Part shown: positions 32,125 through 56,849 of the stretch, in pieces | Numbering within the stretch: the stretch's first letter is position 1 | How the letters are laid out: every line of letters starts with the position of its first letter | Assembly (NCBI RefSeq): GCF_958304185.1 | Contig: NZ_OY284437.1 | Location: 62,001-126,000, forward strand | Reading direction: 5' to 3' | Length of the DNA: 64,000 nucleotides | Origin: an uncultured Erythrobacter sp. | GTDB lineage: Bacteria; Pseudomonadota; Alphaproteobacteria; Sphingomonadales; Sphingomonadaceae | The notes under the pieces: generated by a model | The model's database searches: none | What the model was told of the DNA's origin: nothing | Seen by the model: only the letters and a program-made list of their open reading frames with translations | Program-made: the position numbers and the translations under genes

Positions 32125-34812
32125 ATGGATAGTAGCACGCTTACGACCCTCCTCGATACGGTCTCGCAAGGCGTGGTTGTGTTCGGTGCCGATCGCAAGA
32201 TCGTGTATTGTAATCAGGCATTTCTCGACATCACCGGGTTTGATCGGTCAGAAATGTCGGGCGCCTTGTGCGGCATCATGCAAGGGCCCGATACGGATTG
32301 CGCGGCCATCGCTGCCATCGACGCAGCGATCGAGGCGCGGCAAGCCTTCTCCGGGGAGATTCGGAACAACCGCAAGTCGGGTGAGACCTTCTGGAACGAT
32401 CTCACCTTCAGGCCTGAATTCAATGCCGATGGGTCATTCCGCCATTTCATCGGCATATCGCGGGACATCACCCGACAAAAGAACGCCGAGCTCAAGGCGG
32501 AAAAGCTCGAACTCGATCACCAGTTCATGATGGAGAACGTCCTCTCGGGCGTCGTGCTGCACAAGGCCGACACGGAAATCGTCTATGCCAACCCAAAGGC
32601 CCTTAAGTTACTTGGAGTAGCTAAAGATTCTGCTTTTGGAGCCGTGAACACTGATCCGCTCTGGTCTTTCATACGAGAAGACCGCTCGCCTTTGCCGGTC
32701 GAAGAATATCCGGTAAATCGCGCCGTGGTTGAACGAAAGCCGATCCGCGGTATGGTGTTCGGCAACAGGCGCCACAGCGATGGCAAGCTTATCTGGCTGA
32801 TCTGCAACGCGTTCCCCTTGCTGGATAGCAATGGCAACGTTGACAAGGTGCTCACCAGCTTCACCGAGATAACGCAAATCAAGGAAGCTGAGCGCGAGAC
32901 GAAGATTTACCGGGAACGCTTTGAACTGGCGGCGCGTGCGACCCAGGATGTGGTCTTCGAATGGGACATCGAAACCGGTGCGTACTGGGCAAACGAGTCG
33001 TTCGAGACGATCTATGGCTATCCCGCACCGAGCCATGTCAGCATGGATGACCTAAGCGCTATCAGCGCCGTGGAAGCCGATCATGACCTTCTGCGCCGCG
33101 TGGCGCTCGACGCTATTGAATCCGGCAAGAAACGCTTTTCCGTCGATTACGGGTTTAACCGCCCCGATGGCTCGCAAGGCCGTGCGGCCGTGCGCGGCTT
33201 TGTTGTGCGCGACGAGACCGGCAAGCCGCTCCGGATCATCGGCACCAGTACCGATATCGGCCAGTTGACTGATGCCATGCACGCGCTCGAGGCATCGGAG
33301 GAACGGTTCCGGATCATCGCCGACACCGTCAGCGACGTGTTGTGGGATCGCGATTTCGATACCAATGCCCTGTGGGTCACCCCGGACTGGCCCGACCGGC
33401 TCGGTGTCGCGATCGATCCCGATGTGAGCCAAGAGCGGTACTTTCTCGATCACGTCGAGCCCGAGGACGCTTTACGGGTGCAACGTTCGTTTCTCGAAGT
33501 CATCAAGTCTGATGCAGCGCAATGGGAGATACAATACGTCCTGATCGGCAGCGACGGGACCAAGGTCGATCTGGCGGTCAAGGCGGCCATCCTGCGCAAT
33601 CCGGATGGCAGAGCCCTTCGCATGCTCGGCAATGCCCGCAACGTGACAATCGAGAAGCGTCAACAGGAAGGCTACTCGCGCGCGCGGGCGCTCGAGGCGG
33701 TGGGCCAGCTGACAGGCGGCGTAGCACACGACTTCAACAATCAGCTGATGATCATCCAGGGCAATGCCGAGTTTCTGGAAATGAGCGGCCTTGACGAAGA
33801 ACAGGCCGACTCCGTTGCTCTCATATATCAGGCATGTGGGAGTGCCGCCGACCTAACCCAGCGGCTCCTCTCCTTCTCCCGCCAGTCGCATTTGCAGACC
33901 GGGCGCGTCGATCTGACCAAATTGGTGCCGTCGACGGTCGCACTGCTCAGGGCGGGCATTCCCGAATCCATCACCATCCAGTGCAGGGTTCCGTCAGAGA
34001 TCTGGCAGGCGAAGGCCGATGCCAATGCGCTGGAACAGGCGATCGTGAACCTTGCGGTCAATGCCCGGGACGCGATGCCGGCCGGCGGGGACATTGTCAT
34101 CAATTGCGAGAATGTAACGATCTCGCCCGAGATGCAGCCCTTGCAATCGGAACTTGCACTGGGCGATTATGTCGTCGTCTCGGTGACGGACAATGGCGCA
34201 GGGATGCCGCCTGAAGTTCTCGCCAAGGTGTTTGAACCCTTCTTCACGACCAAGGACGTGGGCAAGGGAACCGGCCTTGGTCTGAGCACAGTTTACGGCT
34301 TTGCCAAACAATCCGATGGGCACGTGACCATTCACAGCAAGCCTGAACAGGGCACGACCATCAAGCTTTTCCTTCCCCGTTTCCTCGAGCTGGAAGTGGA
34401 ACAGGAACAGATGACCGCAACCGAAAAGGCGCGCCCCGGAAACGGGCAGCGGATTCTGCTGGTCGAGGACCAAGCTGAACTCAGGGGCCATGTCGAGAAA
34501 ATGCTCACCAAAATGGGCTATCTCGTCACCGCAGTGGAGGACGGGAAGCAGGCGCTTTCGTTGATCGATCGCGGCATGGCGTTCGATCTCCTGTTTACCG
34601 ATGTGATTATGCCTGGCGGCATGAATGGACAGCAGCTCGCCGAAGCGGTCAGGAAACTCGATCCTGGCATGAAGGTGCTGTTCACTTCCGGCTATCCCGC
34701 CTTCGCCTTCGAACACCTCCAGCTGGACGAGATCGAACACATGAAGCTTCTCAAGAAGCCTTATAGATCGACCGAACTCACAGCCGTCCTTGCAGAAATA
34801 TTCGACTCCTAA
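32125..34812 (+). CDS. LOV/PAS hybrid sensor histidine kinase with receiver domain (copy 1)
   Basis: 895 residues, soluble. An N-terminal LOV-like PAS domain (1-118) has Cys49 at the photoactive position ([10 protein letters not shown]) and FMN-type asparagines N81 and N91 around RKSGETFW. Three further PAS domains follow at about 130-250, 260-385 and 390-515. The kinase core has H-box [11 protein letters not shown] near 535, N-box NARDAMP near 650, G-boxes including [12 protein letters not shown], and a C-terminal receiver (about 773-890) with the phospho-Asp in [11 protein letters not shown]. The LOV motif is atypical: Leu replaces Asn before the Cys, the phosphate-binding Arg positions are Gly and Asp, and the usual Gln in the last strand is Ser. 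A paralogue of nearly equal length lies at 48796. A blue-light or redox role is plausible but unproven. Confidence 0.88.
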
Positions 34813-34817
34813 GCTAA

Positions 34818-35009
34818 GCTTCGAGGTCGGTTTGGGAATTTCCACCCCTCGCAAAAAGCGAGGCTGAAGCCGCGTGGATCATCGACTCACCGCATCACAG
34901 TTATCGCGACAAGCCGTTTTTCACGTTTGGCGCGCCGCCTTATGTGGCCCCCGGCACGCATCGCTACCTGACCAGAACAATGGTTCAGACAACGTCTCGC
35001 GGTGCGTGA
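34818..35009 (+). other. Possible protein-coding remnant upstream of katG
   Basis: One frame without its own start runs from the stop at 34815 to a TGA at 35007. It reads like protein over about 40 codons (for example DSPHHSYRDKPFFTFG). I do not recognise it. It may be a decayed gene end or chance in GC-rich DNA. Confidence 0.15.
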
Positions 35010-35037
35010 TGATCAACAGACCAGAACGGGGCTACAA

Positions 35038-37299
35038 ATGATTAGCAAAATGAAGGGGCTGCTGCTCCTGTCCTCCAGCCTTATGCTTGCCTTGCCCGCG
35101 GCGGCCACGCCTCCGGGGTTTAACGAGCCCAGCATGGGCCGCGCGGCGATGCCGCAAACCGAAGCAGCCCCGCGCAACGTGCAAGGCTGGTGGCCGGACG
35201 TCGTCGACCTCAATCGCCTGCGCCAGAACGAATACAACCCCGACCCCAATGGCGCGGATTTCGATTACGCGGCCGAATTCGCCAAGCTCGATCTGAAGGC
35301 GGTGAAGGCCGACATCAACGCGGCGCTGACGGATTCGCAGGAGTGGTGGCCGGCCGATTACGGCAATTATGCCGGGCTGTTCATCCGCCTCGCCTGGCAC
35401 TCGGCAGGCACCTATCGTTCGGGCGACGGGCGCGGGGGTTCTGACGGCGGGCAGATCCGCTTTGAACCGCTCAATTCTTGGCCAGACAACGGCAACCTCG
35501 ACAAGGCTCGCCGCGTGCTGTGGCCGGTGAAGCAGAAGTACGGCGCGGCGCTTTCGTGGTCGGACCTCATCATCCTGGCAGGCAATGTCGCGCTCGAGAA
35601 CACCGGCTTCAAGACCTTCGGCTTTGCCGGTGGCCGCGCCGATGCGTGGGAGCCGGAGCTGGTCTATTGGGGTCCGGAAACCAAGTTTCTGACGTCGGAG
35701 CGCAACGCCGAGGGCGAAAACCTCGACACCCCGCTCGCCGCTTCGGAAATGGGTCTGATCTACGTCAACCCCGAAGGGCCGGAAGGCAATCCCGATATCC
35801 TCAAGTCCGCCCAGCAGATCCGCACCACCTTTGGCCGGATGGGAATGAATGACGAGGAAACCGCCGCGCTGGTGATCGGCGGGCACACCATCGGCAAGAT
35901 GCACGGCGCGCGCAAGGCAGCCGATTGCGTTGGCAAGGAGCCCGCTGCCGAAGGCGTCGAGGCGCAGGGCTTGGGCTGGAAGAACACCTGCGGCACCGGC
36001 GTCGGCAAGGATGCGACCACCAGCGGCCTTGAAGGCGCATGGACGGTTACGCCGATTCAGTGGAGCAGCAACTACCTTGAAAACCTCTATGGTTTCGAAT
36101 GGAAGCAGACCACCAGCCCGGCCGGTGCCAAGCAATGGGAGCCGGTCAATGCGGCAGACGTGAAGGTGGTTCCCGACGCGTTCGATCCCAACGTCACGCA
36201 TTCGCCAGTGATGCTGACTACTGATCTCGCGCTACGCTACGACCCGGCCTATGGCGCGATTACAAGCCGCTGGGCCAAGGACCCTAAGGCGATGGACGCG
36301 GCCTTCGCCCGTGCATGGTTCAAGCTGACCCACCGCGATCTTGGCCCCAAGGCCCGCTATGTCGGGCCGGAAGTTCCGGCTGAAGACCTGATCTGGCAGG
36401 ACCCGCTGCCGAAGGCAGATTACGCCATTGTCGAAGCGGGCGACATTGCCCAGCTCAAGCAGGCCATCCGCGCCACCGGGCTCAGCCGCTCCGACTTGGT
36501 TCGCACCGCATGGGCTTCGGCGGTCACTTTCCGTGACACCGATATGCGCGGTGGTGCCAACGGTGCGCGCATCCGCCTTGCGCCGCAGAAGGACTGGGGC
36601 GTGAATGATCCCGCCACGCTCGCCAAGGTGGTCACCGCGCTCGAAGCCGTGCAGGCGAAGTTCAACGCTGGCGCGGGTGCCAAGAAGGTGTCGATCGCCG
36701 ATCTCGTGGTGCTCGGCGGTGTCGTCGCCGTCGAGGACGCGGCAAAGGCGGCGGGGCAGAGTGTCACCGTGTCTTTCACTGCGGGTCGGACCGATGCGAC
36801 CGAGGCCCACACTGACGCCAAGAGCTTCGAACTGCTGCGCCCGGCCGCCGACGCCTTCCGCAATTTTTACAGCGACAAGGCCAGCCTGACGCCAACCCAG
36901 ATGTTGATCGATCAGGCTGACACGTTGGGACTGACCGTGCCGGAGATGACGGTGCTGCTGGCAGGGATGCGGATGCTCGACGCCAATAGCGGCGGCGCCA
37001 AGCATGGGGTGTTCACCGATCGTCCCGGCACGCTTAGCAACGACTTCTTCGTGAACCTGCTCGACATGGGCAACACTTGGAAGCCGGCTGAGACCAAGGG
37101 CGTCTATGAGGGCCGTGACCGGGCGACCGGCGCGCTGAAGTGGACCGCCACCGAAGTCGATCTGGTGTTCGGCTCCAATTCGGAACTGCGCGCCGTGGCG
37201 GAAACCTATGCGGTGAAGGGCGGAGAAGCAAAGTTCGCGCAGGACTTTGCCAAGGCCTGGAACAAGGTGATGATGCTCGACCGCTTCGATCTGCGGTAA
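35038..37299 (+). CDS. katG: Catalase-peroxidase with signal peptide (exported KatG)
   Basis: 753 residues from the ATG at 35038, giving a clear signal peptide (about residues 6-23, ending PAAAT). A GTG at 35002 would add 12 polar residues and is less likely. The distal haem side has Arg117, Trp120 and His121 in [11 protein letters not shown]. The proximal His is in [10 protein letters not shown]. Trp120, the Tyr of [11 protein letters not shown] and the Met of GRMGMND are all placed to form the Met-Tyr-Trp cross-link needed for catalase activity. The second half is the non-catalytic duplicate domain. It removes peroxide, here probably in the periplasm, as for KatP-type enzymes. A terminator-like hairpin follows at 37314. 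Confidence 0.93.
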
Positions 37300-37313
37300 G
37301 GCAAGATGACTGC

Positions 37314-37343
37314 GAGGCGCCGGGCTTACTGTCCGGCGCCTCC
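37314..37343. terminator. Bidirectional terminator between katG and efflux operon
   Basis: GAGGCGCC and GGCGCCTC pair with an extended GG/CC step around a short loop. The stem lies between the convergent katG stop (37299) and the outer-membrane efflux gene stop (37346). Confidence 0.6.
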
Positions 37344-37345
37344 CT

Positions 37346-38800
37346 TCAGGGCTGCCCGTCCGTTCGCTGCTCGGCGACGGTTTCCCCTCCAAGTGCGCGG
37401 TATAGGGCGACCCGGTTGCTGGCTTCGATCAGCTGCGTCGCGAGAAGCGTGCGCTGCGCGGCATAGGACGCGCGCTGCGCATCGAGGCTGGCAAGGAAGG
37501 AATCGATCCCGCCGCGATAGCGCAGATCGGCAAGACTGAAGTTATCTTCGGCCGCATCGACGAACGCGCGGTTGGCGCGCAGCTGTTCGGTGATCGTGCC
37601 GCGGCGCGCGAGCGCGTCGGCAACATCGCGGAACGCAGCCTGTATTGCGCGCTCGTAGCCTGCCACCGCTGCATCGCGCTGCGCCTCGGTCTGGGCCACA
37701 CCGGCCTGCGCCGCGCCGCCTGCGAACAGCGAATAACGTACATTGGCACCCGCCGAATAATTGAACGCAGCGCCCGTGAACAAGGTGGACAGCGCATTGC
37801 TCGCAAAGCCAGCAAGCCCCGTCAGCGTGATCCGCGGGAACAGCGCCGCGCGCGCCGCGCCAATTTCGGCATTGGCCGCGCGCAGTTCGTATTCCGCCTG
37901 CATCACATCGGGGCGGCGCAGCAGAATCGCAGAATCGAGGCCGGCGGGAAGCGTGCGCACCGCCTCGCCCGCGTCGGCGATTGATTGCGGCAGCAGCCTG
38001 TCGTCTACAGGCGCGCCGATCAGCAGTTGCAGCGCGTTGATATCCTGCGCGAGCGCGGTTTTCTGCTGCGCAATATCGGCTTCGGCGGTGGCAAGGATCT
38101 GTTCCGCCTGCCGCAGATCGGTGCGCGGCGCGATACCACCGTCGAGCCGCAGCCGGGTCAGCTTCACCTGCTCGCGCGCATTGGTGGCCGTATCCTCGGC
38201 AAGCTTGAGAAGTGAGCGATCGGCGGCATAGGTCAGCCACGCATCGGCGATATCGCCAATCAGCGTCAGCCGCGTTGCCCGCGCGGCGGCCTCCGTGCCG
38301 AAATAGCGATTGAGCGCGGCATCGGACAGCGATTGCAACCGTCCGAACAGGTCGACCTCGAACGCCGTCGTGCTCACATCAGCGGTGTAGCGAACCCCCG
38401 CAGTCGAGCGGCTAGCCGACGGATCATTGCCGATGTCGACGTCCTGATTGCGGTTCTGGTTGGCTGTGCCGTTGTCGAACTGGGTGCGATTAGCGCCCAC
38501 GCCGATCTGGGGCAGCTGGCCCGCGCGCTGAATCCGGAACTGGGCGCGCGCGGCGGCGATGTTCGCGGCGGCCACGCGCAGGTCGCGATTATTGGCAAGC
38601 GCCTGTTCGATCACCTGCGCCAGCCGCGGGTCGGTAAAGACCTCGCGGTAGGTCATCACCGGCAGTGCGGCCTCGCTCTGCGCAAGATAGGCATCGCCCA
38701 CCGGCCATGATGCCGGGACGGGCGGGGCGGGCTGCACATATTTGGGCGCCATCGAACAGCCCGAAAGCAACGCCAGCGCGATCAACACCCCGCTTCTCAT
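37346..38800 (-). CDS. Outer-membrane efflux lipoprotein (NodT/OprM family)
   Basis: 484 residues beginning with a lipoprotein signal (LALLSGCSMAPKY), so Cys15 would be lipid-modified. Two outer-membrane-factor repeats follow, rich in alanine coiled-coil, with ANRDLRVAAANIAAARAQ near residue 70 and LLRRPDVMQAEYELRAANA in the second half, both typical of OprM/NodT proteins. The start overlaps the stop of the RND pump (ATGA). It provides the outer-membrane channel of the tripartite pump. Confidence 0.93.
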   Translation of the reverse strand: MRSGVLIALALLSGCSMAPKYVQPAPPVPASWPVGDAYLAQSEAALPVMTYREVFTDPRLAQVIEQALANNRDLRVAAANIAAARAQFRIQRAGQLPQIGVGANRTQFDNGTANQNRNQDVDIGNDPSASRSTAGVRYTADVSTTAFEVDLFGRLQSLSDAALNRYFGTEAAARATRLTLIGDIADAWLTYAADRSLLKLAEDTATNAREQVKLTRLRLDGGIAPRTDLRQAEQILATAEADIAQQKTALAQDINALQLLIGAPVDDRLLPQSIADAGEAVRTLPAGLDSAILLRRPDVMQAEYELRAANAEIGAARAALFPRITLTGLAGFASNALSTLFTGAAFNYSAGANVRYSLFAGGAAQAGVAQTEAQRDAAVAGYERAIQAAFRDVADALARRGTITEQLRANRAFVDAAEDNFSLADLRYRGGIDSFLASLDAQRASYAAQRTLLATQLIEASNRVALYRALGGETVAEQRTDGQP

Positions 38801-41800
38801 GCCGCGCCTCGTTCGGTTGCAGCGGGCGGCGTGCTTGGGCCGAGATGCAGCTTCTTGAGCGTGTCGCGGGTGGTGCGGCGCACGATTACGAAGAACAGCG
38901 GAATAAAGAAGATCGCCAGCACCGTCGCGGTCAGCATCCCGCCGATTACCGATGTGCCGATGGCGATGCGGCTATTCGCTCCCGCGCCGCTCGACAGCGC
39001 TAGCGGCAGTACGCCAAAGATGAAGGCGAGGCTGGTCATCAGGATCGGGCGCAGGCGCAGGCGGGCCGCTTCCAGTGCGGCATCGATCACCCTTGCGCCG
39101 CGCTTTTCGGCTTGCTCGGCAAATTCGATCACCAGAATGGCGTTCTTTGCCGCCAGCCCCATCGTGGTCAGGAGCCCGATCTGGAGAAAGACGTCGTTCT
39201 CAAGGCCCCGCAGCGTTACGGCGAAGACTGCGCCGACCAGCCCGAGCGGAATCACCAGCATCACCGCCACCGGGATGGTCCAGCTTTCATAGAGCGCGGC
39301 AAGGCACAGGAAGACCACCAGCAGCGACAGCGCATAGAGCAACGGCGCCTGACCGGAGGACAGCCGTTCCTGGAACGACAGGCCCGACCAGGCGACGCTG
39401 ACGCCCGGGATGTCCTTGGCCAGCGCCTCGACCCGGTCCATCGCTGCACCCGAGCTTTCGCCCGGCGCGGCCTGACCGTCGAACTGGAAACTGGGATAGC
39501 CCTGAAAGCGCGACAGCGTGGTTGGCGTGGTCGACCAGCGGGTGCGGGCAAAAGAGGAAAAGGGCGCCATCTGCCCGTTATCGCCGCGCACGAACCACCG
39601 CCCGATATCGTCCGGCGTCGCGCGGTAGGGCGCATCGGCCTGAACAAAGACGCGCTTCACCCGCCCGCGATCGATGAAGTCGTTAACGTATTGCCCGCCC
39701 CACGCGGCTGACAGGGTGGCGTTCACATCCGCCTGATTGAGCCCCAAGGCGGCGAGCTTGGGCTGGTCGATATCCACCTGCATGGTCTGCACATCGGGCA
39801 GCTCGCCGAGGCGCACACCGGCGAGGGCGGGATCTCCCTCCGCCGCCGCCAACAGCTTGTCGCGCGCGGCGGCGAATTCCTCGCGGCTCATCCCGCTGGT
39901 GTTCTGGAGTTGGAGGCTGAAGCCGTTGGTCTGGCCCAGCCCGCGGATGGCCGCCGGCACAAGGACATTCACCTGCGCATCACGGAACCCGGCAAATGCC
40001 TTATTGGCCCGCTCGCTGATGCCATCGGCAGAATTCTCCTCGCCTTTGCGCTTCGACCAGTCGACGAAATTGACGAAGCCCTGTCCGGTATTCTGCCCAG
40101 CCGCACCCTGTCCGCCGCCCGCAACGCTGAACATGACCGCGATGTTCTTGCGCTCATCCTCCAGCATGTACTTTTCGATGGCGAGCTGCACCTCGCGCGT
40201 GCGCCCCAGCGTTGCACCGGCTGGCAGGCGGTACTGGAGCCGCACCGATCCTTGATCCTCGGTCGGCAGAAAGCCGGTCGGCAGGCGCACAAACAGCACG
40301 GCCAGCAGAACCAGCACGATCGCGTAGATCGCCAGGAACAACCACTTGCGGTCGACTACCCGCTCCACGGCCACCACGTATTTGTCAGTGCCGCGCGCAA
40401 AGGTGGTGTTGAACCATGACTGGGCCTTTGCCAGAGCTTCGGCCCCGCGAGGCCAGGTGCGTTGCAGGCGGCTTTCCTGTTCGTCGGCAGAATGGCGCTT
40501 CTGCCGCAGCAGCGTCGCAGTGAGTGCAGGGCTCAGGATCAGCGCTACTAGCGCCGACAGCACCATGGCGGAGACAATCGTGATCGAAAACTGGCGATAG
40601 ATCACGCCTGTCGACCCGCCGAAGAACGCCATGGGCAGGAACACCGCGGACAGCACAACCGCAATGGCGACCAGTGCCACCTGGATCTCGCCCATCGACT
40701 GGATCGTCGCCTCCTTGGGCGTCATGTCGGGGTTTTCTTCGAGCAGGCGTTCGACATTCTCGACGACCACAATCGCATCATCGACCAGCAGGCCGATTGC
40801 CAGCACCAGCCCGAACAGCGTCAACGTGTTGATCGAGAACCCTGCGACATAAAAGATGGCGAAAGTGCCCAGCAACACCACCGGCACCGCAATGGTCGGG
40901 ATCAGGGTTGCGCGCCAACTTTGCAGGAACACGAACATGACGAGCACCACAAGCAGGATCGCTTCGATCAGCGTCTGCACCACCTCGTCAATCGACAGGC
41001 GGATGAAGGCCGTGCTGTCATTGGCATAATCGACGTTATAGCCCGCCGGAAAGCTGGGCTTGGCATCGGCAACGGCCTGTTTGACGAGATCGGCGGTGGC
41101 AAGCGCATCGGCGCCCGGCGCAAGCGAGATGGCGAGGCCAGCCCCTGGGTGCCCGTTGATCCGGCTGGATGCCGAATAGTTTTCCGCGCCCAGCTCAACC
41201 CGTGCGACATCGCTCAGCCGCACGATCGCGCCGCTCTGTTCGGACTTGAGGATGATCGCCTTGAATTCGTCCACGGTGCGCAAGCGCGATTGCGAGGTGA
41301 CCGTGGCATTGAGCTGGTTGCTGTCCGGTTGCGGCACCCCGCCGACTTCGCCGGCCGCGACCTCGGTGTTCTGGTTGCGGATCGCTGTGATGATATCGCC
41401 CGGCATCAGCCCGACCGAAGCAAGCCGGTCCGGATCGAGCCAGACCCGCATCGCGTAAGGAGAGCCAAACACGTTGGTTTCCCCCACGCCTTCGATCCGC
41501 GAAAGTTCGTCCTGGAGGTTCGAAACCAGAAAATCGGACACGTCGATATTGGTGCTGCGATCGGTCTCATCATAGACGCCGACGATCATCAGGAAATCGG
41601 GGTTGGATTTGGTAACGCGCAGCCCCTGTTGCTGCACCTGTTGCGGCAACCGGGCGAGCGCCTGTTGCACCTGGTTCTGCACCTGCACCTGCGCAATATC
41701 GGGATCGGTTCCCTTCTCGAAAGTGGCGCTGATCGTCACCTGTCCGCGCGAGGTGGAGCTGGAATTGAAATAGAGCAGCCCGTCGATCCCGGTGAGTTGC

Positions 41801-42000: not shown

Positions 42001-42009
42001 GGCCGCGCC

Positions 42010-43197
42010 TCAGCCCTTCGTATCGGGCTTGGGTGGAGCGATCACCTGCGGCTTGCTGGCAGCAACGGGCCGGATCGGCGCGCCCGGCCTGATTTTGGCG
42101 ATGCCTTGTACGATCACCTTGTCGCCCGGCTTCAGTCCACCTGTCACCACCCAGTCAGAGCCAACCGTACGGCTCGCCTCGACCTTGCGTTCGGCGGCCT
42201 TGTTGTCGGCATCGACAACGAACACGCTCGCTTCTCCGCGCGCATTGCGGGTCACCGCCGCCTGCGGCACGAGGATCGCGCCCGTATCGATTGCTTGATC
42301 GAACCGCGCCCGCACGAACATTCCGGGCAGCAGCAATCCGTTCGGATTGGTGAAGCGTGCGCGCAGCGTCACCGTGCCCGTCTCCGGATTGACCATCACT
42401 TCGGAGAATTGGACGATCCCTTGCGGGCCATACTCGGTCCCGTCCTCAAGGATCAGGCGCACCGCTGTGCTGGCCGGAACGGCGCCGCCTTGCACCAGCG
42501 ATCGGCGCAACGTGAGCAGATCGGCGCTCGATTGCTGGATATCGACAAAGATCGGGTCCACGCCCTGGATCACCACCAGCGGCTCGGCCTGATTGCCGGT
42601 GACCAGCGCGCCCACCGTGACCAGCGAGCGGCCGATGCGACCTGTGATCGGCGCGGGCACGCGGGTGAACTGGAGGTTGATATTGGCCGTCTGGAGCTGC
42701 GCGCGCGCTTGCTGCACCGAGGCTGCTGCCTGGCGCGCGGCGGCCTGTGCATCAGTGTAGTCCTGCAACGCTACCGCCTGCGCTTCGGCCAGCGGCTTCA
42801 ATCGCTCGGCACGGACGCGGGTGGCTTCGGCATTGGCGAGTGCGCTGTTGAGGTTAGCGTTCGCCTCTGCGGCGCCAGCGCGAAACAGGCGCGGGTCGAT
42901 TTCATAGAGGGTCTGCCCCGCCTTTACCAAAGCCCCTTCGGTGAAGAACCGCCGGCGGATCAGCCCGCTGACCTGCGGCCGCACCTCGGACATTTCGAAC
43001 GCCGTGACACGTCCGGCAAGCTCGACCGGAATCGGCACGGAACTGGCCTTGACCACGACAAAGCCGACCTCCGGTACAGGCCGCTCGCGCCCTCCATCGC
43101 CTGCATCACCCGAACAACCAGCCAGCGCCAGCGCAGCGAGCCCGGCGATAGCTAAACGGAAGATGTGCGGTGGTTTGGTCGGGGCAGGGAGAGAGAT
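42010..43197 (-). CDS. RND periplasmic adaptor (membrane fusion protein), start uncertain
   Basis: The protein has the MexA/AcrA adaptor layout: the N-terminal beta-barrel strand, the lipoyl half (RRRFFTEGALVKAGQTLYEID), a coiled-coil hairpin, and the second lipoyl half (APITGRIGRSLVTVGALV). It ends KPDTKG. The first GTG in the conserved part is at 43056, but the same frame upstream encodes a good lipoprotein signal (IAGLAALALAGCSGD, Cys near 43110). That segment has no ATG, GTG or TTG before an in-frame TAG at 43245-43243. The coordinate given uses an ATC at 43197 only as a placeholder. Either a rare non-ATG start is used or there is an indel. It links pump and outer-membrane channel. Confidence 0.82.
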   Translation of the reverse strand: MSLPAPTKPPHIFRLAIAGLAALALAGCSGDAGDGGRERPVPEVGFVVVKASSVPIPVELAGRVTAFEMSEVRPQVSGLIRRRFFTEGALVKAGQTLYEIDPRLFRAGAAEANANLNSALANAEATRVRAERLKPLAEAQAVALQDYTDAQAAARQAAASVQQARAQLQTANINLQFTRVPAPITGRIGRSLVTVGALVTGNQAEPLVVIQGVDPIFVDIQQSSADLLTLRRSLVQGGAVPASTAVRLILEDGTEYGPQGIVQFSEVMVNPETGTVTLRARFTNPNGLLLPGMFVRARFDQAIDTGAILVPQAAVTRNARGEASVFVVDADNKAAERKVEASRTVGSDWVVTGGLKPGDKVIVQGIAKIRPGAPIRPVAASKPQVIAPPKPDTKG

Positions 43198-43477
43198 AAC
43201 AGTCTCGCAGAAAATTGGCCGTATGAGGGCTGATGACGGCCCCTAGTTACGGCATTGATCCATGGTAGGCTTTGGGTGCCGCGTGCGACCTGCCTTGTTT
43301 TTCCTTCGCGTCACCACGAAGCTTCCTTGCACCTGAAACGCCCGGTGGCCAGCCTGCAAATATGCAAACCTAGCGTTTTCTGCGACGAGCGGTTTGCTTT
43401 TGGCCCCATAATTCCCGGTGAGCGCCTCATCTCGCCGCACTGCCGCTGGGTCAGCCCGAGGGGAACAAGTTAAGCCG

Positions 43478-45601
43478 CTATTGATCCAGGAGCTTGCGGA
43501 TGGTTTCGGCCAATTCTGTCCGGCGAAAGGGTTTGCTTAAGACGCTCAATGGGTTTTGGAGGCGTCGTTCCCGCATCAGTGGGTCTTCGCTGTAGCCTGA
43601 TGCCAGTAGCACCCTTAATCCCGGCTGTTGCTCTAGCGCGACCTCCACCAACTGCCTGCCGTTCATCTCGCCGGGCATGACGACATCGGTGAACAGCAGA
43701 TCGAAGGGCGGGCTTTCCGCCAAAATCTGCAAGGCGTCAGCGGCCGATCCTGCGGCCACGATGGTGTAGCCGAGCCGCTCCAGCTGGACGACAAGGCTCT
43801 GCCGAACCAAAGCGTCATCCTCGACCACAAGAATGCGCTCCGCCCGACCCGTTGGGGTCTGCTGCGCTTCGGGTTGAGCAGGCTGGATTTCATCATCATC
43901 GGTTGCTGGGAAATAGAGGGATATCGTGGTGCCGCTCATGAGCTCCGACGCGATCTCGGCGATCCCGTGCGACTGACGCACAAACCCCCACACCATCGAA
44001 AGGCCGAGGCCTGAGCCTTGGCCCACCTCCTTCGTCGTGAAGAAAGGCTCGAACGCGCGTTCGATATCCTGTGGCGGCATCCCGCAGCCGTCATCCGCGA
44101 CAGTGATCATGACATAGCGGTCACCAACCCAGTCTTCTTGGCGCCGCAGATCATCCGCTCCAACGGTGGTGTTAAATGCCGTGATGATGATTTTGCCGCC
44201 ATTCGGCATGGCATCGCGCGCATTGATCACGAGGTTCAAAATAGCATTTTCCAGCTGGCCTGGATCGACCTCGACGGCCCAGACATCGGAAGCAGCCGTA
44301 AGCGAAATCGCGATGTTTGCAGGAATGGTCCGGCGGATCAGCGCTTCAATGCCCGCGAACAATTCACTGAGATGGAGCTTGGTGGGCGACAAGGTCTGAA
44401 GCCGCGCGAAGGATAGCAATCTGCTCGTGAGCATAGCTCCGCGTTCTGCTGCCTGCATCGTGGTTTCCGCCAGCCAGCGCGAATCTGCGTCCGCAGCATG
44501 GATTTGCGAGAGCTCCTCAGCGTTGCCGAGTATGATTGTCAGCAGATTATTGAAATCATGCGCCAACCCGCCAGTCAGTTGGCCCACAGCTTCCATCTTG
44601 TGTGCCTGCCGCAATTTCTTTTCGAGAGCATTGAATTCCGACACATCGGTGGAGCTGCCGATAATCCGGCTGGGCTTTCCTTCGTCATCATGCAGGATCA
44701 TGGCGCGTTCGACCATGTCGACAACTTCGCCATCGGCGCAAACAAAACGGAATTGGCACAGCCATGTCCGATGGCCGTTTGCGATGGCTGCTTGCAGGCT
44801 TTTGACAACCCGCTCGCGGTCGTCTGGGTGGATCCAGTTCTCGCGGGCGTGCGGATTCGTCGCGAATTCGCGCGGGTCGTAGCCGTAGCTGTCGCGCAGC
44901 TTTTCGTTCCACCAAACCGTGCCTTGGGCAAGGTCAATGTCGCAGACAAGATCATCGGTTGCGAGGGAGAGCAAGCGGAAGCGTTCCTCGCTCACGCGGA
45001 GCGTAGCGGCACTCCGTTCCGTCTCTTCGGCAAGCGCAGCGCGCCTGATCTCCTGGTCGCGGTGTTTCGAGAATAAACCGATGAAGGCCACGAAAGCATA
45101 GTAACTGATCGTGTAAGACAAGACGGTGGCAATGCCGACCGCGTCAGTCAAATCGGTCAGCATGAACACGATCATGGGCGCCGGGCCGATGTTCACCAGA
45201 ACCCCGATCCGGCTTTTGTAAAAGCCAAAGTTGGTGAAGTGGTGGAACACAACCAGCGGGAAGAACCAAGCCATGTAAGGCAGGGTGCGGGACGTCTGAT
45301 CGGTGGTGGCGTAGGCGATGATCGCCCCTGCGTTGAGATGCACGCAATAGTAGACTGTGAGGCACCCCGTGATCACACCGGTCGCCATTGCTGGCCGGAT
45401 CGACACTGCGATCAACAAGCTGCCGGTTACGATGGCAGCAATGCCTAGCACCCACGACTCCGGCCCGGATATGTTGCCGAGGCCGACAGCAACGACTGTT
45501 CCCAGCATTGCCCCGACAAATGCAATGATCAGTGATAATCTGACCGAGTTCTGCGCTTGCCTGCGGCGATAACTGAAGCGGCTGATGTCCGTATCGTTCA
45601 T
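43478..45601 (-). CDS. Membrane-bound PAS hybrid histidine kinase with receiver domain
   Basis: 707 residues from the ATG at 45601, which has a GAAGG-type site; an alternative ATG at 45631 has none. About six hydrophobic helices occupy residues 20-185. A PAS domain of the PAS-3 type follows (about 205-330, with W near ARENWIHPDDRERV), then a kinase core with H-box GGLAHDFNNLL, N-box NARDAMP and GSGLGLSMVWGF, and a receiver with phospho-Asp in LLFTDVVMPGE. The core closely resembles that of the two LOV kinases, so these are paralogues. It faces away from the LuxR-HTH/hydrolase gene with about 150 bp between starts, suggesting functional linkage. The signal sensed is unknown. Confidence 0.87.
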   Translation of the reverse strand: MNDTDISRFSYRRRQAQNSVRLSLIIAFVGAMLGTVVAVGLGNISGPESWVLGIAAIVTGSLLIAVSIRPAMATGVITGCLTVYYCVHLNAGAIIAYATTDQTSRTLPYMAWFFPLVVFHHFTNFGFYKSRIGVLVNIGPAPMIVFMLTDLTDAVGIATVLSYTISYYAFVAFIGLFSKHRDQEIRRAALAEETERSAATLRVSEERFRLLSLATDDLVCDIDLAQGTVWWNEKLRDSYGYDPREFATNPHARENWIHPDDRERVVKSLQAAIANGHRTWLCQFRFVCADGEVVDMVERAMILHDDEGKPSRIIGSSTDVSEFNALEKKLRQAHKMEAVGQLTGGLAHDFNNLLTIILGNAEELSQIHAADADSRWLAETTMQAAERGAMLTSRLLSFARLQTLSPTKLHLSELFAGIEALIRRTIPANIAISLTAASDVWAVEVDPGQLENAILNLVINARDAMPNGGKIIITAFNTTVGADDLRRQEDWVGDRYVMITVADDGCGMPPQDIERAFEPFFTTKEVGQGSGLGLSMVWGFVRQSHGIAEIASELMSGTTISLYFPATDDDEIQPAQPEAQQTPTGRAERILVVEDDALVRQSLVVQLERLGYTIVAAGSAADALQILAESPPFDLLFTDVVMPGEMNGRQLVEVALEQQPGLRVLLASGYSEDPLMRERRLQNPLSVLSKPFRRTELAETIRKLLDQ

Positions 45602-45750
45602 GCCCGGGCTGCCTTCAGTGAGATACCGCATTTATAGACTAGCACAGCGGCTTAACATTTTCGTGCATCTCAGCGACTTTTACCCGCCGGGCCGGCCACC
45701 GAATAGCATGATACGGCTCGGATGATTTAACCCATTTAGGGGGATGTCGT

Positions 45751-47478
45751 GTGGCGGTTTGCAAGCCTATCACTTGCACCGTTCCATCAGAGGGCGGCGG
45801 CGTAGTGCATAAGGTCGATGTCATCCATCCGGATCAACGCAAGGGCGGCCCCGATGAGATTGGCTCTGACCAGGGTTGGTTGCAGGTTCAGTTCGCACGG
45901 CTTGAAGCGCAGTCCGAGGGGTTCTGGTTCGAAACCTACAACGATAAGCGCTTCGGGCCGACCATCGCCATTGTCGGCGACGGCGCGCAGATGTGCCGGA
46001 TCATCTTCGATCCCGCATTGATAACCGATCCACTGCCGGCAGGCAGCCTATGCGTGTTGCGGCCAGACTGGAACCTGATCGAAGCGCAATTGCACGGCTT
46101 CGCTCAGGATTTCGGAATGTCGCCATCGGTCACCCGGCTGGTCGTCGCATTGTTCCAATCGGGCGATGTCCGGGCAGCGGCGGCAAGCGCAGGCCTGGCT
46201 TATGAAACCGCGCGCGAATATCTCGGCGCAGCGCGCCAGATGGTGGGCGCGACCAACCTTCAGAACCTCATCACGCTCATCGGACTGGGCATTGCCCGGA
46301 CCGGCAGCAATGCGGAAGAAAGCGACGCTTTGCTCGCCTATGCCTATGGCCTGTCCGAAAGGCAAACCCAGATCGCGGGCCTGATCGCCAATGGCGCCGC
46401 GCGGCAGGAGGTGGCGCGCACGCTGGCGGTGTCCGAAGCTCTGGTGAAGAAGGAACTGGCGCATATCTTCGCCGCCGTCGATGTCGCCAATGCTGCGGCC
46501 CTAGCGCGCACGATGGTGGAGCTCCGGCTGCTTGCGATCGCGACCACCCTGCATGACGGACACGATCCTTTCCCCGAGGCGGTTCACCACGTTCTCACCC
46601 TAACCGCGCGCGATGGACGGGTGATCGCGGCGAGCGACTATGGCCCGCGCTCGGGCGAGCCGCTGTTCGTGCTGCATTCCAGCATGACCAATCGCCCGGT
46701 CAATCGCGCGCTGGTCGAAGCGTTGCAAAACAACGGCTATCGGCCGATTGCCATCGACCGGCCCGGCTTTGGCGGAACTGATGCGGCTCCGGAGGAATGC
46801 CGGGGTGACGACTATTTCAACCTTGCCGCAAGCGACATCGTCGACGTCTGCGGAGCCAAGGGCTGGGCGCGCATCAAGCTGGTGTCGCGCGGGGCGGCGC
46901 AGATCATCCTCGCACTGCAACGGCAATGCCCCGAATTGATCGCAGCGGCCGTGATCATGAATCCCGATCCCGATGCCCGGTCGAGCTCCAAGCAAAGCGG
47001 ATTTCTGGCGGCGATGAAGCGCAACTTCGTGCGGCGGCCGTGGGCGGCCGGTCTGATGTCGCGCTGGGCTGTGCAATCGCTGACCTTCGCACGGGTGCGC
47101 GACAACGTCCTGCGCTCGGCCGCGGGCTGTCCGGCCGATGAAAAGATCATGGCCGATCCCTTGCATATGCAAGACTACTATCGGGGCGTCACAGCCTTTC
47201 GCGAAGGCAAGCTCGATGGCTTCGTGCGTGAACAGACGGCGCTCGCGACCGTCGGCATGCCGCAGCCGTTGCGCGGGACCCACCGGCTGACGCTGCTGGT
47301 GGGCGATCAGGACAGCATCCACGATCCGCATGAAACAATGCGATATTGGCGCAAGGTTCTACCCGATGCGCACATCGCGATGGTACCCGGCGCAGGGCGT
47401 TTCATGAGCTTCAGTCACCCCGGTTTGGCAGTAAAAGCGCTCACCCGGCAGGCGGCGACGCGGCAACCGCTGCTTTAA
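45751..47478 (+). CDS. Two LuxR-like HTH regions fused to an alpha/beta-hydrolase domain
   Basis: 575 residues from a GTG at 45751 with AGGGGGG upstream. Residues about 120-178 look like a degenerate LuxR-type HTH (FGMSPSVTRLVVALFQSGDV, then TAREYLGAARQMVG). Residues about 200-258 form a second and better one (YGLSERQTQIAGLIANGAA, then LVKKELAHIF). Residues about 282-570 are an alpha/beta hydrolase with RPGFGGTD and GDQDSIHDP. The nucleophile elbow reads LVSRGAA (Ser379), lacking the first Gly of GxSxG, and the usual catalytic His after GAG appears as Arg (PGAGRF). It may therefore bind rather than hydrolyse a ligand. It could be a ligand-responsive transcription factor; no target is evident. 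Confidence 0.72.
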   Translation: MAVCKPITCTVPSEGGGVVHKVDVIHPDQRKGGPDEIGSDQGWLQVQFARLEAQSEGFWFETYNDKRFGPTIAIVGDGAQMCRIIFDPALITDPLPAGSLCVLRPDWNLIEAQLHGFAQDFGMSPSVTRLVVALFQSGDVRAAAASAGLAYETAREYLGAARQMVGATNLQNLITLIGLGIARTGSNAEESDALLAYAYGLSERQTQIAGLIANGAARQEVARTLAVSEALVKKELAHIFAAVDVANAAALARTMVELRLLAIATTLHDGHDPFPEAVHHVLTLTARDGRVIAASDYGPRSGEPLFVLHSSMTNRPVNRALVEALQNNGYRPIAIDRPGFGGTDAAPEECRGDDYFNLAASDIVDVCGAKGWARIKLVSRGAAQIILALQRQCPELIAAAVIMNPDPDARSSSKQSGFLAAMKRNFVRRPWAAGLMSRWAVQSLTFARVRDNVLRSAAGCPADEKIMADPLHMQDYYRGVTAFREGKLDGFVREQTALATVGMPQPLRGTHRLTLLVGDQDSIHDPHETMRYWRKVLPDAHIAMVPGAGRFMSFSHPGLAVKALTRQAATRQPLL

Positions 47479-47568
47479 GCGCTCTAACCCCCCCCAATCG
47501 GATATGCCGCCGCTTTCGCGCCTGGTTAACGTCCGGCGCAATGCACGGATTGGCGAATGGGGAACACA

Positions 47569-48561
47569 ATGAAACGGTATCTAGCGATCGCAGTATTGGC
47601 CATGGTGGTGGCGGGGCCTTTGGCGCTGCCAGCCCAAGGCGCCGACCCCAAGCCGGCTATCAAGATCGACAAGCCTGCCGCGATGAATGCGTCGAAGCAG
47701 GTGGTGGTCGGCAGCTTTGTGGTCGCCTTCCTGACCGAACGGCGTGACAGTGCCAAGGCGGGCGGCGGGCTATTGGGATCGGGCTTCGGCGGCAAATCTT
47801 CGGCGCGCAGCACGCTGGCGGGCCTGACTGACGCCGACTTTCAGGCCGCGACCGATGCGGCCTATGCCGATTTCGAACGGCAGATAACTGCGGCCGGCTA
47901 CACCGTTGCGGATCGCGCGGCGGTGCTGGCGGCGGTCACTGAGGGCGGCGCGAAGGCTCAGGAGAATGGCGCGGAGAAGGACTTGATCCTTGGCCGCGAT
48001 TCCAAAGCTGAAGCCCGGCTGTTCGCACCTTCGGGCTGGGGTGGTCCGCTGATCGCGCGCGAATTTCTGGGCCTGATGGGCCCCGGAGGCTTCAACGGTG
48101 CCCGCAGCGCAATCATGATGACCATGAAGGGGCAGGAATTCGCCAAAGCCAGCGGTCAGGCGGTGGTCAATGTCTTCTATGTCGTCGATTTCGCGCAGGC
48201 TGAAACCTATGGCGGCGCTTTCCGCAATGTCTCGGCGGTCAACGTCAAAGCGGGGTTGGCGACAGTGCCCGAAGCGAGCAAGCTCGTGGTCTTTGCACCA
48301 AAGGGGCAGATCGGCACAGCCACCTTGCGTGAACCAATCGCGGTGGGCGGTGCGTTTGGCGAGTTTGCTGACACGCAAAGCGGCGGCGAAAAGGCGCTCA
48401 ACACTGCTGCCAACGTAATCGGCTTTCTGGGCGGCATCGGTACCAACAGCTCGAAAAAGTACACTATGACAGCCGATCCCGCCGCCTGGCGTAACGGGCT
48501 CTCGGAGTTGATGAACGCCACCAATGCGCAATTCACCGCGGCGATGAATGGATCACGTTGA
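47569..48561 (+). CDS. Exported protein of unknown function
   Basis: 330 residues from the ATG at 47569 (GGGGAA upstream), with a signal peptide (residues about 1-24, ending PAQGA). I do not recognise a family. After the signal there is a conserved-looking VVVGSFVVAFL strand, a Gly/Ser-rich stretch (about 64-75) and an alternating beta/alpha pattern with segments such as VVNVFYVVDFAQAET and KLVVFAPKGQIG. The body has no transmembrane helix and no Cys pairs. Codon use and GC are like the neighbours. It follows the hydrolase-fusion gene in the same direction with 90 bp between, so co-transcription is possible. Confidence 0.65.
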   Translation: MKRYLAIAVLAMVVAGPLALPAQGADPKPAIKIDKPAAMNASKQVVVGSFVVAFLTERRDSAKAGGGLLGSGFGGKSSARSTLAGLTDADFQAATDAAYADFERQITAAGYTVADRAAVLAAVTEGGAKAQENGAEKDLILGRDSKAEARLFAPSGWGGPLIAREFLGLMGPGGFNGARSAIMMTMKGQEFAKASGQAVVNVFYVVDFAQAETYGGAFRNVSAVNVKAGLATVPEASKLVVFAPKGQIGTATLREPIAVGGAFGEFADTQSGGEKALNTAANVIGFLGGIGTNSSKKYTMTADPAAWRNGLSELMNATNAQFTAAMNGSR

Positions 48562-48795
48562 GGCCTACGCGGTTGGATCGCGCTTCTCACCGCCAGCGCC
48601 GCGACGCTGGCGGTGAAGACAGACCGGGGACCGTCCACCCCGTCATGTGAGGCACCAACCTCAATCTCCCAACCATAGCCCAATAAACAATTCCCTCGAC
48701 CGGTGCACATCCGCTACCAATGTCATCTGTGACATGGTTGGCGGCCACGATCATTGGCTCAGTTGCGCCAACTAAGCGCTAGAGTGGGGATGGGA

Positions 48796-51486
48796 ATGGG
48801 TGGGGCCTTCTATACAAACATGCTGGACGCTGTCTCCGACGGGGTCGTGGCGTTTAACCCAGACCGACAGATTATTTATTGTAATCAGGCTTTTCTTGAT
48901 ATCACTGGGCTCGACCGCAGCGATCTAGATCAGGGACTCTGTGCGGTTATTCAAGGCGCCGATACAGATCCTCTTACCATCGCCAGGATTGATGAAGCGC
49001 TCGCCAACGGCACGCCGTTTGATGGCGAAATTCTCAATTACCGCAAATCCGGCGAAGCCTTCTGGAACCATTTGTCATTCAAGCCGGAGACCGACGCGAC
49101 GGGTAGCGTAACCCATTTTATCGGGATTTCGCGCGATGTGACAGCCAACCGCAGTACGCAGACACGTTATTCCCAGCTGGAGCGGGATTACGAGTTCATC
49201 TTCGAGAATGTGCTGGCTGGGATTATCATCCGTGATCCGGACTCTCGTGTCCGCTACATCAACCCCAAGGCGAGGGAAATGCTCGGCCTGACCGGAGACG
49301 GCACGATGGACGCGGCGGCCGTGGAGCGCGGCTGGCAGTTCCTTCGTCCTGATGGATCGGTGATGCCGCCCGCGGAGTTCCCGTTCTACCGTGCTCTACG
49401 GGAGCGCGCTACGGTGCGAGGTGTGTTGCTGGGGCACAGGCGTACATTGGACGGCAAGATCGTTTGGGCGCTCTGCGACGCGTTCCTCGCCAATGATGAC
49501 AAGGGCGATGTGGCTGCGGTGCTTGTGAGCTTTACCGACGTCTCACGCCTCATCGAAAGCGAGCAAACCGCCCACGCATATCGCGAACGCTTCGAACTTG
49601 CCGCGCGCGCGAGCCAAGATGTGATTTTCGAATGGAACATCGAAACGGGTGCATTCAGTGCCAACGAAGCGTTCAAGACCGTCTATGGCTATGAACCGCC
49701 CGATATCATGGGGCCCGGCAATCTCGACGCCCGCAATGCCGTTGAAGCCGATCAGCACGCGGTACGCGATGTCACACTAAAGGCCATTGCATCGGGCGAT
49801 GAGCGCTTTTCCGTCGACCACATGATCAATCGTCCTGATGGATCGATCGGCCATATCGTGATCCGGGCCTTCATAGTCCGCAATCCGCAAGGCGAGGCCT
49901 TACGCGTGATCGGGACGGCGACCGACATTGGCCAACTTACAGCCGCGCTTGCTGCACTGGAGGAATCCGAGACTCGATTCCGGATCATCGCTGACACGGT
50001 CAGTGACATCCTGTGGGATCACAATTTCGAAACCGGGCGATTGTGGATGACGCCGGATTGGAACATCAAGCTGGGCTTGGAGGCACCGCCAGAGCCTGTC
50101 ACGACGAATGGATGGGTGGACCTGATTGACCCGGCAGATCTTGAAGTGACGCTCGAATCCTATCGCGAAGCATTGAAATCGAATGCGGCGCAGTGGGAGA
50201 GAGAATACCAAGTGGTAGGCGCGGATCAGCGCAAGATCGACGTGGCGGTGAAGGCGTGCATCCTGCGCCGTCCCGATGGCAAGGCTTACCGCGTACTGGG
50301 CAGCGTGCGCGACGTAACCAACTTGAAGCGCCAGCAGGAAGGCTACAGCCGCGCCCGCGCGCTTGAGGCCGTGGGACAGCTGACCGGCGGCATCGCACAT
50401 GACTTCAACAATCTCCTGATGATCATCCTCGGTAATGCCGAATTGCTGGGCATGAGCCCTCTCAGTGATCCCGATGCCGAAAGTGTCGCCTTGATCGGCC
50501 ATGCGGCGGAAAACGCAGCCACTTTGACCAAGCGCTTGCTGGCATTTTCCGGACAAAACCGGCTTCAGGCCAGCCGCGTCGATATGACGACATTGCTAGA
50601 AAACATGTGGCCTCTCCTGCGCGCTGGGCTGCCGGAAAGCATTTCCGTGACCCGGAGCATCGATGAACACATCTGGGAGCCGAATGTCGATGCCAACAGC
50701 CTTGAGCAGGCGATCATCAATCTTGCCATGAATGCAAAGGACGCCATGCCGAGCGGCGGAGAAATCTCGATCCTTTGCGAGAACCATGTGGTGACAGATG
50801 ACATGGTGCCCAATGCATCAGGCTTGGCAGCTGGTCGCTATGTGCTTTTGTCCTTCTCAGACACCGGCGGTGGCATGTCGGAGGAGGTCTTAAGCAAGGC
50901 TGTCGAACCCTATTTCACGACCAAGGAATTCGGCAAAGGTACCGGGCTAGGCCTAAGTACGGTCTATGGCTTTGTCACCCAGTCAGGCGGCAGTTTGACG
51001 ATCCATAGCGAGGAGGGTGCGGGAACCACGGTCAATCTTTATCTGACCGCCGGTGCGGGGCACGATTTGCATGATACCCATGACACCGTCGAGGTGGGGC
51101 ACAACCCAACGTCCCGACATCATCGCATTCTAGTTGTGGAAGACCAGCCAGACGTACGCGCGCATGTCGAAAGGTTGCTTTCGCGACTCGGATACGCGGT
51201 TGTTGCGGCGAGCGATGCCGTATCGGCCCTTGCGATCTTGAAAGAAGGGCAGACGTTTGATCTGCTCTATACCGATATCATCATGCCTGGCGGTATGAAC
51301 GGCCAGGAACTCAGCAAAGCCGCCAAGCAAATCGCGCCGCAGATGAGAGTGCTTTTCACCTCAGGTTATCCGGCAGCCGCGTTCGAGCACCTTGGTATCG
51401 AAGATCAGACCAGTATCAATATCCTGCGCAAACCGTATAGGGCAAAGGAGCTTGAGGATGCCATCGCCAAAGCGATCTCCGACTGA
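48796..51486 (+). CDS. LOV/PAS hybrid sensor histidine kinase with receiver domain (copy 2)
   Basis: 896 residues from the ATG at 48796, chosen because it aligns residue-for-residue with the start of the paralogue at 32125; a second ATG at 48790 and a TTG at 48754 are alternatives. The domain order is the same: LOV-like PAS (Cys49 in CAVIQGADTD; N81 and N91 around RKSGEAFW), three PAS domains, H-box GGIAHDFNNLL, N-box [19 protein letters not shown], and a receiver with phospho-Asp in LLYTDIIMPGG. It shares the unusual substitutions of copy 1: Leu before the Cys, no phosphate-binding Arg, and Ser in place of the signalling Gln (GISRDVT). No output gene is adjacent in the same operon. Confidence 0.88.
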   Translation: MGGAFYTNMLDAVSDGVVAFNPDRQIIYCNQAFLDITGLDRSDLDQGLCAVIQGADTDPLTIARIDEALANGTPFDGEILNYRKSGEAFWNHLSFKPETDATGSVTHFIGISRDVTANRSTQTRYSQLERDYEFIFENVLAGIIIRDPDSRVRYINPKAREMLGLTGDGTMDAAAVERGWQFLRPDGSVMPPAEFPFYRALRERATVRGVLLGHRRTLDGKIVWALCDAFLANDDKGDVAAVLVSFTDVSRLIESEQTAHAYRERFELAARASQDVIFEWNIETGAFSANEAFKTVYGYEPPDIMGPGNLDARNAVEADQHAVRDVTLKAIASGDERFSVDHMINRPDGSIGHIVIRAFIVRNPQGEALRVIGTATDIGQLTAALAALEESETRFRIIADTVSDILWDHNFETGRLWMTPDWNIKLGLEAPPEPVTTNGWVDLIDPADLEVTLESYREALKSNAAQWEREYQVVGADQRKIDVAVKACILRRPDGKAYRVLGSVRDVTNLKRQQEGYSRARALEAVGQLTGGIAHDFNNLLMIILGNAELLGMSPLSDPDAESVALIGHAAENAATLTKRLLAFSGQNRLQASRVDMTTLLENMWPLLRAGLPESISVTRSIDEHIWEPNVDANSLEQAIINLAMNAKDAMPSGGEISILCENHVVTDDMVPNASGLAAGRYVLLSFSDTGGGMSEEVLSKAVEPYFTTKEFGKGTGLGLSTVYGFVTQSGGSLTIHSEEGAGTTVNLYLTAGAGHDLHDTHDTVEVGHNPTSRHHRILVVEDQPDVRAHVERLLSRLGYAVVAASDAVSALAILKEGQTFDLLYTDIIMPGGMNGQELSKAAKQIAPQMRVLFTSGYPAAAFEHLGIEDQTSINILRKPYRAKELEDAIAKAISD

Positions 51487-56554: not shown

Positions 56555-56849
56555 CTTTCATCCTTTCATAAGCCAAGCGTTCTGGGCAATTTCTCTGCCC
56601 AGCAAACGTTTATTTAGAAAGGAGAACCAGAAAGTGTGCTCCCGACCCTGTAATGCCTTGTCAGGCCCATTGAGCAATAATTTACCACGTAAATGGTCGG
56701 CTTGGACGAACTTGCTCGTTACGCCTTGGCGCATACGCGTGACAGGTGTATTCTATGATTTGAGTTATAGCTTTGCCTCGCTCGATTGCCCACTGCGCAA
56801 ACGATATTGCGGTGGTGGAATTTTCCCGCGAACTTTGAAAGAAAAACTG

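Follow-up and report, generated by a model that had tools for sequence, protein, structure and literature searches.

Can a LOV domain that keeps its adduct cysteine still serve as a sensor after several of the other residues typical of LOV domains have been replaced? This question is raised by two paralogous hybrid histidine kinases, here called P1 and P2, encoded in a 64,000-nucleotide stretch of an uncultured Erythrobacter sp. genome (hereafter, the window). Our preferred answer, a tentative one to which we assign a probability of roughly 45%, is that the N-terminal sensor of both proteins is a diverged Gln-less LOV domain, which would be flavin-based wherever Cys49 remains and would signal to a FixJ-type regulator.

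P1 (32125..34812, + strand; 895 aa) and P2 (48796..51486, + strand; 896 aa) are encoded by intact open reading frames and share 53% identity over 892 columns with a single gap. Their nearly equal length and identical set of Pfam families (PAS, HisKA, HATPase_c, and receiver) agree with the initial annotation, which had described two proteins of the same length and domain order. In each protein, a LOV-like PAS domain (residues 8-120; 32146..32484 in P1 and 48817..49155 in P2, both + strand) precedes more PAS domains and a HisKA-HATPase-REC module (33703..34791 and 50374..51465, both + strand). The phospho-accepting His box, the N, G1, and G2 boxes, and the receiver Asp and Lys are all in place, as expected of functional hybrid histidine kinases. 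Among NCBIfam models, the kinase-receiver part of both proteins lies nearest to NF010076 (PRK13557), a family that includes LOV kinases. Whole-protein scores against this model are 457.5 bits for P1 and 440.3 bits for P2, both below the curated cut-off of 631. PRK13557-type hybrid kinases are thus the best-scoring family for the kinase and receiver, but the best-matching stretch begins at model position 135-136 of 540 and leaves the N-terminal end of the model uncovered, and P1 and P2 carry additional PAS domains. The G+C content of both genes (58.0% for P1, 57.2% for P2) is lower than the window mean of 63.1%.

In phmmer searches of PDB sequences, the highest-ranking matches of the two N-terminal domains were LOV domains (best E-values 1.4e-20 and 2e-23), the lists also including some rows not named LOV, such as 3ewk, "Sensor protein", in the P1 list. 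In the alignments with characterised LOV domains, Cys49 of both proteins (codons 32269..32271 and 48940..48942, + strand) sits on the LOV adduct cysteine, as had been proposed at the outset; the initial reading of L48, G50/A50, Q53, D66, N81, N91, and S112 was likewise correct. Both proteins thus keep Cys49, Gln53, and the ring-contact residues N81 and N91, which correspond to N94 and N104 of YtvA. Replaced are the asparagine preceding the cysteine (L48), one arginine (G50 in P1, A50 in P2), a second arginine (D66), and the last-strand glutamine (S112; codons 32458..32460 and 49129..49131, + strand). Instead of a GxNCRFLQ core with its Asn and Arg, P1 has GALCGIMQ and P2 has QGLCAVIQ. Compared with canonical LOVs, both proteins have an A-B loop that is shortened by three residues and is without the DNPI-like stretch that is typical of LOV domains and occurs in most of the canonical LOV rows aligned here. 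Both proteins also carry Cys29. An AlphaFold2 model of P2 residues 1-126 reached a mean pLDDT of 86.4, and a fold search with it returned 604 matches at E <= 0.001; all 50 rows listed were solved LOV domains, the best being 9vf7 with a TM-score of 0.93 by query length. Since the model was built on an alignment that holds canonical LOVs, this result speaks for compatibility with the fold rather than for flavin binding. The sequence comparisons support a LOV ancestry of the domain in both proteins.

A domain of LOV ancestry may nevertheless have become an ordinary PAS module that no longer binds flavin and serves in dimerisation or binds another small ligand, Cys49 and the two asparagines being leftovers of the LOV past. 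The loss of N48, both arginines, the glutamine, and the DNPI-like A-B loop would fit this explanation, last strands of the GISRD or GIVRD kind are common in generic PAS domains, and sensing could be done by the other PAS domains of the kinases. We regard it as possible but doubtful, in view of the conservation patterns described below. Counting against a flavin-binding domain are the loss of both phosphate-clamp arginine sites, one of which is now an aspartate, the repeated loss of Cys49 in the lineage, and the UBA7686 relative, which keeps the cysteine with a serine at N81; on the evidence as a whole, we would put flavin binding in P1 and P2 at near even odds.

Published LOV domains provide some precedent for such losses. 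The available sections of one study describe about 350 natural Gln-less LOVs, including one that is light-responsive in E. coli, and indicate that Gln-less LOVs signal (PMC9098866, Dietler et al, 2022). The available text of another describes about 70 Cys-less LOV-like proteins, one of which responds to chemical reduction and photoreduction (PMC4682037, Yee et al, 2015). In YtvA, according to the excerpt available, the binding of riboflavin is stronger than that of FMN, and the phosphate might therefore be unnecessary (PMC3836802), and mutation of two of the clustered arginines in PpSB1-LOV is given in the accessible part of its report as accelerating dark recovery 280-fold (PMC5314338). Within the sections available, the riboflavin preference of YtvA and the signalling by Gln-less LOVs weaken the case for an essential role of the glutamine and of the contacts to the phosphate. 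The altered flavin use suggested in the initial annotation, for example of riboflavin, is a possible property of P1 and P2.

As described in the same sections of PMC9098866, LOV-deltaQ domains resemble P1 and P2 in retaining the adduct cysteine and replacing the glutamine, Ser and Thr being among the reported replacements. However, that set was filtered for at least eight of nine LOV marker residues, the scheme that we also used for scoring (Dietler et al, PMC9098866), whereas P1 has five and P2 four, with the pre-Cys Asn and both phosphate arginines also lost and a shorter A-B loop. The LOV-deltaQ count is reached by the relatives G146 and G934 (9/9 each) and G924 (8/9). The Cys-less LOV-like proteins, so far as the available text of PMC4682037 describes them, are matched by a third paralog in the same genome and by three relatives, in which the Cys site is occupied by Pro, Arg, Phe, or Ser; in contrast, P1 and P2 keep the cysteine, and entry into the published set required almost all of the other markers, which are lost here. 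Among the titles and abstracts listed, our literature search found no report of a domain that keeps the cysteine and has lost the Asn, both Arg, the Gln, and the loop, and no title or abstract that names P1/P2-type proteins; the available portions of PMC6798134 and PMC12654162 contain nothing on them.

With the P1 domain as query, matches at E <= 0.001 occurred in 117 of 149 genomes of the family, and most of those inspected are canonical LOVs or PAS domains of other kinds; at E <= 1e-20, 30 of 396 genomes of the order matched. The P2 domain found matches in 29 of 114 genomes of the genus (E <= 1e-16); in the family, two of 397 genomes matched at E <= 1e-22, namely G146 and the genome of the window itself. 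Among 385 genomes of the class, 27 matched the G146 domain at E <= 1e-24, and the matches inspected were mostly canonical LOVs or other Gln-less LOVs with a long loop. The P1/P2 kinase family itself is present in eight of the 114 genus genomes (the window's own, G309, G397, G444, G481, G484, G489, and G496), and the remaining genus matches, among those inspected, belong to canonical LOVs or to different PAS domains. In genus g78, a match to the P1 domain (E <= 1e-20) is present in seven of 60 genomes, and in five of these it lies in an open frame of 899-915 codons; P1/P2-type members were seen in genera g1 and g78 only, among the genomes searched. A scan of named genomes yielded 24 loci, seven of which encode members of the P1/P2 family, and the closest named relatives come mainly from Porphyrobacter and Erythrobacter records, together with one Hyphomonas-labelled metagenome bin. 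In G309, a second LOV-related PAS domain, in which Pro occupies the Cys site (GSPRLCQ; L120:14253-14660, - strand), lies about 5 kb from the family kinase, and close relatives of this second domain are found in G540 and G422.

In a domain tree (102 columns, 89 rows; 24 of 86 inner branches open), P1 and P2 fall into one inner clade of nine domains with support of 100/99, together with SLTP_P1, SLTP_P2, UBA7686, TH134a, TH134b, G489, and G496. The clade persists at 100/98 after removal of nine key columns. All nine members carry Leu48, and the active-site glutamine is absent from all 15 family members, the third paralog set aside. The marker count declines in a graded manner: it is 9/9 and 8/9 in the three relatives named above, 7/9 in G293 and G928, 6/9 in G309, 5/9 in P1, TH134a, and TH134b, 4/9 in P2 and SLTP_P2, 3/9 in UBA7686, and between one and three of nine in the Cys-less copies. 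From the single inner clade and this gradient among relatives, we infer that the unusual residue set represents inherited erosion rather than two independent events, most simply begun by loss of the glutamine.

This history bears directly on the earlier argument that the occurrence of the same unusual set in both proteins indicates selection. That argument fails because one common ancestor passed the set to both copies, and independent selection on P1 and on P2 is rejected, both proteins lying in one clade with or without the key columns. The broader contention, selection rather than decay, holds in part: what fell away is the occurrence in two copies as its basis, and what stands is constraint on the domain, which is apparent from pairwise Nei-Gojobori counts made for each of seven domains. 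For three inner-clade pairs in which both proteins keep the cysteine, dN/dS of the LOV-like domain is 0.17 (P1-UBA7686), 0.14 (P1-TH134a, dS 1.07), and 0.11 (P2-SLTP_P2); the pairs P1-TH134b, TH134a-TH134b, and P1-P2 are saturated and yield no dN/dS, and values near saturation (dS 1.6-2.1) are 0.28 for P1-G309 and 0.25 for P1-G146. In the P1-UBA7686 and P2-SLTP_P2 pairs, dN/dS is higher for the LOV-like domain than for any of the other six, yet its values remain low, which indicates a constraint that is real but weaker than elsewhere in the protein. These values, far below 1, already disfavour plain decay of P1 and P2, in which the domain would drift without function in all copies. Plain decay could draw on three losses of the cysteine, on one frameshifted and truncated ortholog, on this top rank among the domains, and on the higher dN/dS of 0.35 and 0.32 in pairs with the Cys-less SLTP_P1; we nonetheless consider it very improbable.

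Cys49 itself has been replaced in three of the nine inner-clade members, by Arg in SLTP_P1, Phe in G489, and Ser in G496, and the tree places these as three separate changes. Outside the inner clade, the cysteine is kept in G309, G293, G928, G924, G934, and G146. Three losses among nine members imply that the kinase does not need Cys49, and they would be expected if the domain were an ordinary PAS module. What happens to the domain once the cysteine is gone argues against that explanation. In the one of the three Cys-loss lineages covered by our rate test, with TH134a as outgroup, the LOV-like domain of SLTP_P1 has accumulated 14 lineage-specific changes against two in P1 (p 0.004) and 14 against four in UBA7686, whereas the rest of the protein shows 22 against 25 in P1 (domain versus rest, Fisher p 0.007); in this ortholog, the loss thus goes with a speed-up of the LOV-like domain alone. 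Moreover, Q53 and N91 are invariant in all 12 Cys-keeping copies and N81 is present in 11 of them, the exception being UBA7686 with its serine. Every Cys-less copy, the third paralog included, has lost at least one of these three ring contacts (4/4, versus 1/12 with Cys; Fisher p 0.003), and the association is 3/3 without the third paralog (Fisher p 0.009); these statistics are post hoc, uncorrected for relatedness, and rest on three independent losses of the cysteine.

Within the inner clade, site 112 follows the same split, with Ser in all six Cys-keeping members and Val, Leu, and Val in the three Cys-less ones. Columns 49 and 112 are the only ones that follow this split among 300 columns invariant in the six. 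The comparison used 691 columns filled in all nine proteins, at residues <=704, the G496 protein ending at its contig end, and 82 of 386 invariant columns lie outside it. A general coupling of Cys49 and Ser112 had to be cut back: G928 (Val112) and G934 (Met112) keep the cysteine without Ser or Thr at this site, so that the link is only a local trend. In our reading of these patterns, the domain of P1 and P2 still has a Cys-linked task, one that is dispensable in the lineage.

The third paralog is a kinase of the P1/P2 kind encoded in the same genome (C3:66499-68715), with Pro at the Cys site and no PAS2. From residue 256 on, it is 68% identical to P1. Its N-terminal PAS domain groups with other PAS domains on the tree (97/81), which speaks against a first impression of the third paralog as a decayed copy of the P1/P2 sensor; the foreign grouping of the PAS domain on a kinase so similar to P1 makes it an apparent swap of the sensor domain. 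The window also contains a fragment of a related kinase (HATPase end and REC; 55335..55841, - strand), whose genome match reads through one TGA and which is probably a decayed further kinase copy; at the place in SLTP that matches this fragment, no kinase match was found. The P1 ortholog of E. ramosus has a frameshift inside the LOV-like domain, and its matches end at about residue 171.

The gene next to P1 encodes a catalase-peroxidase (HPI; 35002..37299, + strand), which is also the neighbour in SLTP, UBA7686, and E. ramosus. Its position directly downstream of P1 and of the SLTP and UBA7686 orthologs would suit a redox or thiol sensor, in which Cys49, perhaps together with Cys29, or a bound flavin would react with peroxide or the redox state rather than with light, and P1 would regulate the peroxidase. 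Such a sensor would also be in keeping with the presence of Cys29 in both proteins and with the response of a natural Cys-less LOV-like domain to chemical reduction and photoreduction in the available text of PMC4682037. However, neither the surroundings of P2 nor the examined loci of more distant relatives yielded a match to the peroxidase, and E. ramosus keeps an intact peroxidase match, 4.6 kb away, although its P1 ortholog is broken. Cys29, moreover, is kept in three of four copies without Cys49 and is Ala in four of the six outer members that keep Cys49. We therefore judge a redox or thiol sensor of this kind to be quite unlikely.

For the diverged Gln-less LOV that we prefer, the output that we propose is a FixJ-type REC-LuxR response regulator (56634..57473, + strand; start codon uncertain, REC from ORF residue 82-83), which scores 147 bits against a curated FixJ cut-off of 255. 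We surveyed 16 intact kinase loci, P1 and P2 included, plus the broken E. ramosus copy. In six of the 16, a homologue of this regulator (43-73% identity to that of the window) is directly adjacent to the kinase (G146, G293, G924, and G934) or one PilZ gene away from it (G489 and TH134b); it lies about 1.3 kb from the kinase in G928 and about 6 kb in G309. In SLTP, the homologue follows P2 at a distance of about 3 kb, and genes for GGDEF and PilZ proteins lie in between. In the window, the regulator lies 5.1 kb past P2, separated from it by genes for a GGDEF protein (diguanylate cyclase; 51687..52742, + strand), also downstream of SLTP_P2, and for an integrase-core (rve) transposase (53104-54135, - strand), by the kinase fragment, and by a PilZ gene (55937..56554, - strand) with homologues near the kinase in several relatives. 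P1 and its orthologs in SLTP and UBA7686 have no regulator homologue nearby, the catalase-peroxidase following instead, and none was found around the third paralog or on G496, where the contig is short. Given this distribution, a FixJ-type output with a connection to c-di-GMP is plausible for P2, but no more than an inference for P1. The arrangement resembles FixL/FixJ in pairing, in several relatives, a PAS-bearing kinase with an adjoining FixJ-type regulator; it differs in the LOV-derived sensor PAS, the hybrid receiver, and the regulator score below the FixJ cut-off.

We propose that P1 and P2 descend from a lineage of LOV domains whose known members all lack the active-site glutamine. Where Cys49 is kept, the domain would still hold a flavin, either riboflavin or loosely held FMN, and may respond to blue light or redox through adduct formation or flavin protonation. 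In place of the glutamine, Ser/Thr112 or water could act as relay, and the signal would reach the kinase by way of the other PAS domains and then go on to the FixJ-type regulator. In the Cys-less relatives, the pocket would be degenerating, with the kinase probably driven by its remaining PAS inputs.

The 3.29 Mb genome contains two Photo_RC matches, which are probably the L and M reaction-centre subunits, and four BLUF matches; a canonical LOV query matched only P1, P2, and the third paralog. A more far-reaching version of the proposal is conceivable, in which P1 and P2 would be rebuilt LOVs that bind riboflavin, dispense with the phosphate clamp, use Ser for Gln, feed a FixJ-type pathway, and form the sole LOV-derived light input of a bacterium with photosynthesis genes, the Cys-less sisters being redox or light-blind versions. 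In this full form, we consider it unlikely. In either form, the diverged LOV would add a candidate light or redox input for Erythrobacter/Porphyrobacter-type bacteria with photosynthesis genes.

LOV domains are widely used optogenetic parts. Gln and Cys have each been shown to be dispensable for LOV signalling. Here, one bacterial lineage provides a natural series that runs from full Gln-less LOVs (G146 and G934) through partial ones (G293 and G309) to P1 and P2 and to Cys-less copies, on similar kinases throughout. Such a series could show where flavin binding and the light response vanish and whether a LOV can run without the phosphate clamp.

Two further genes of the window lie between P1 and P2. 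An open reading frame at 45751-47478 (+ strand) combines an alpha/beta hydrolase with a match to a LuxR-type HTH, and the hybrid kinase encoded next to it (43478-45631, - strand) has a kinase part of the same type as P1.
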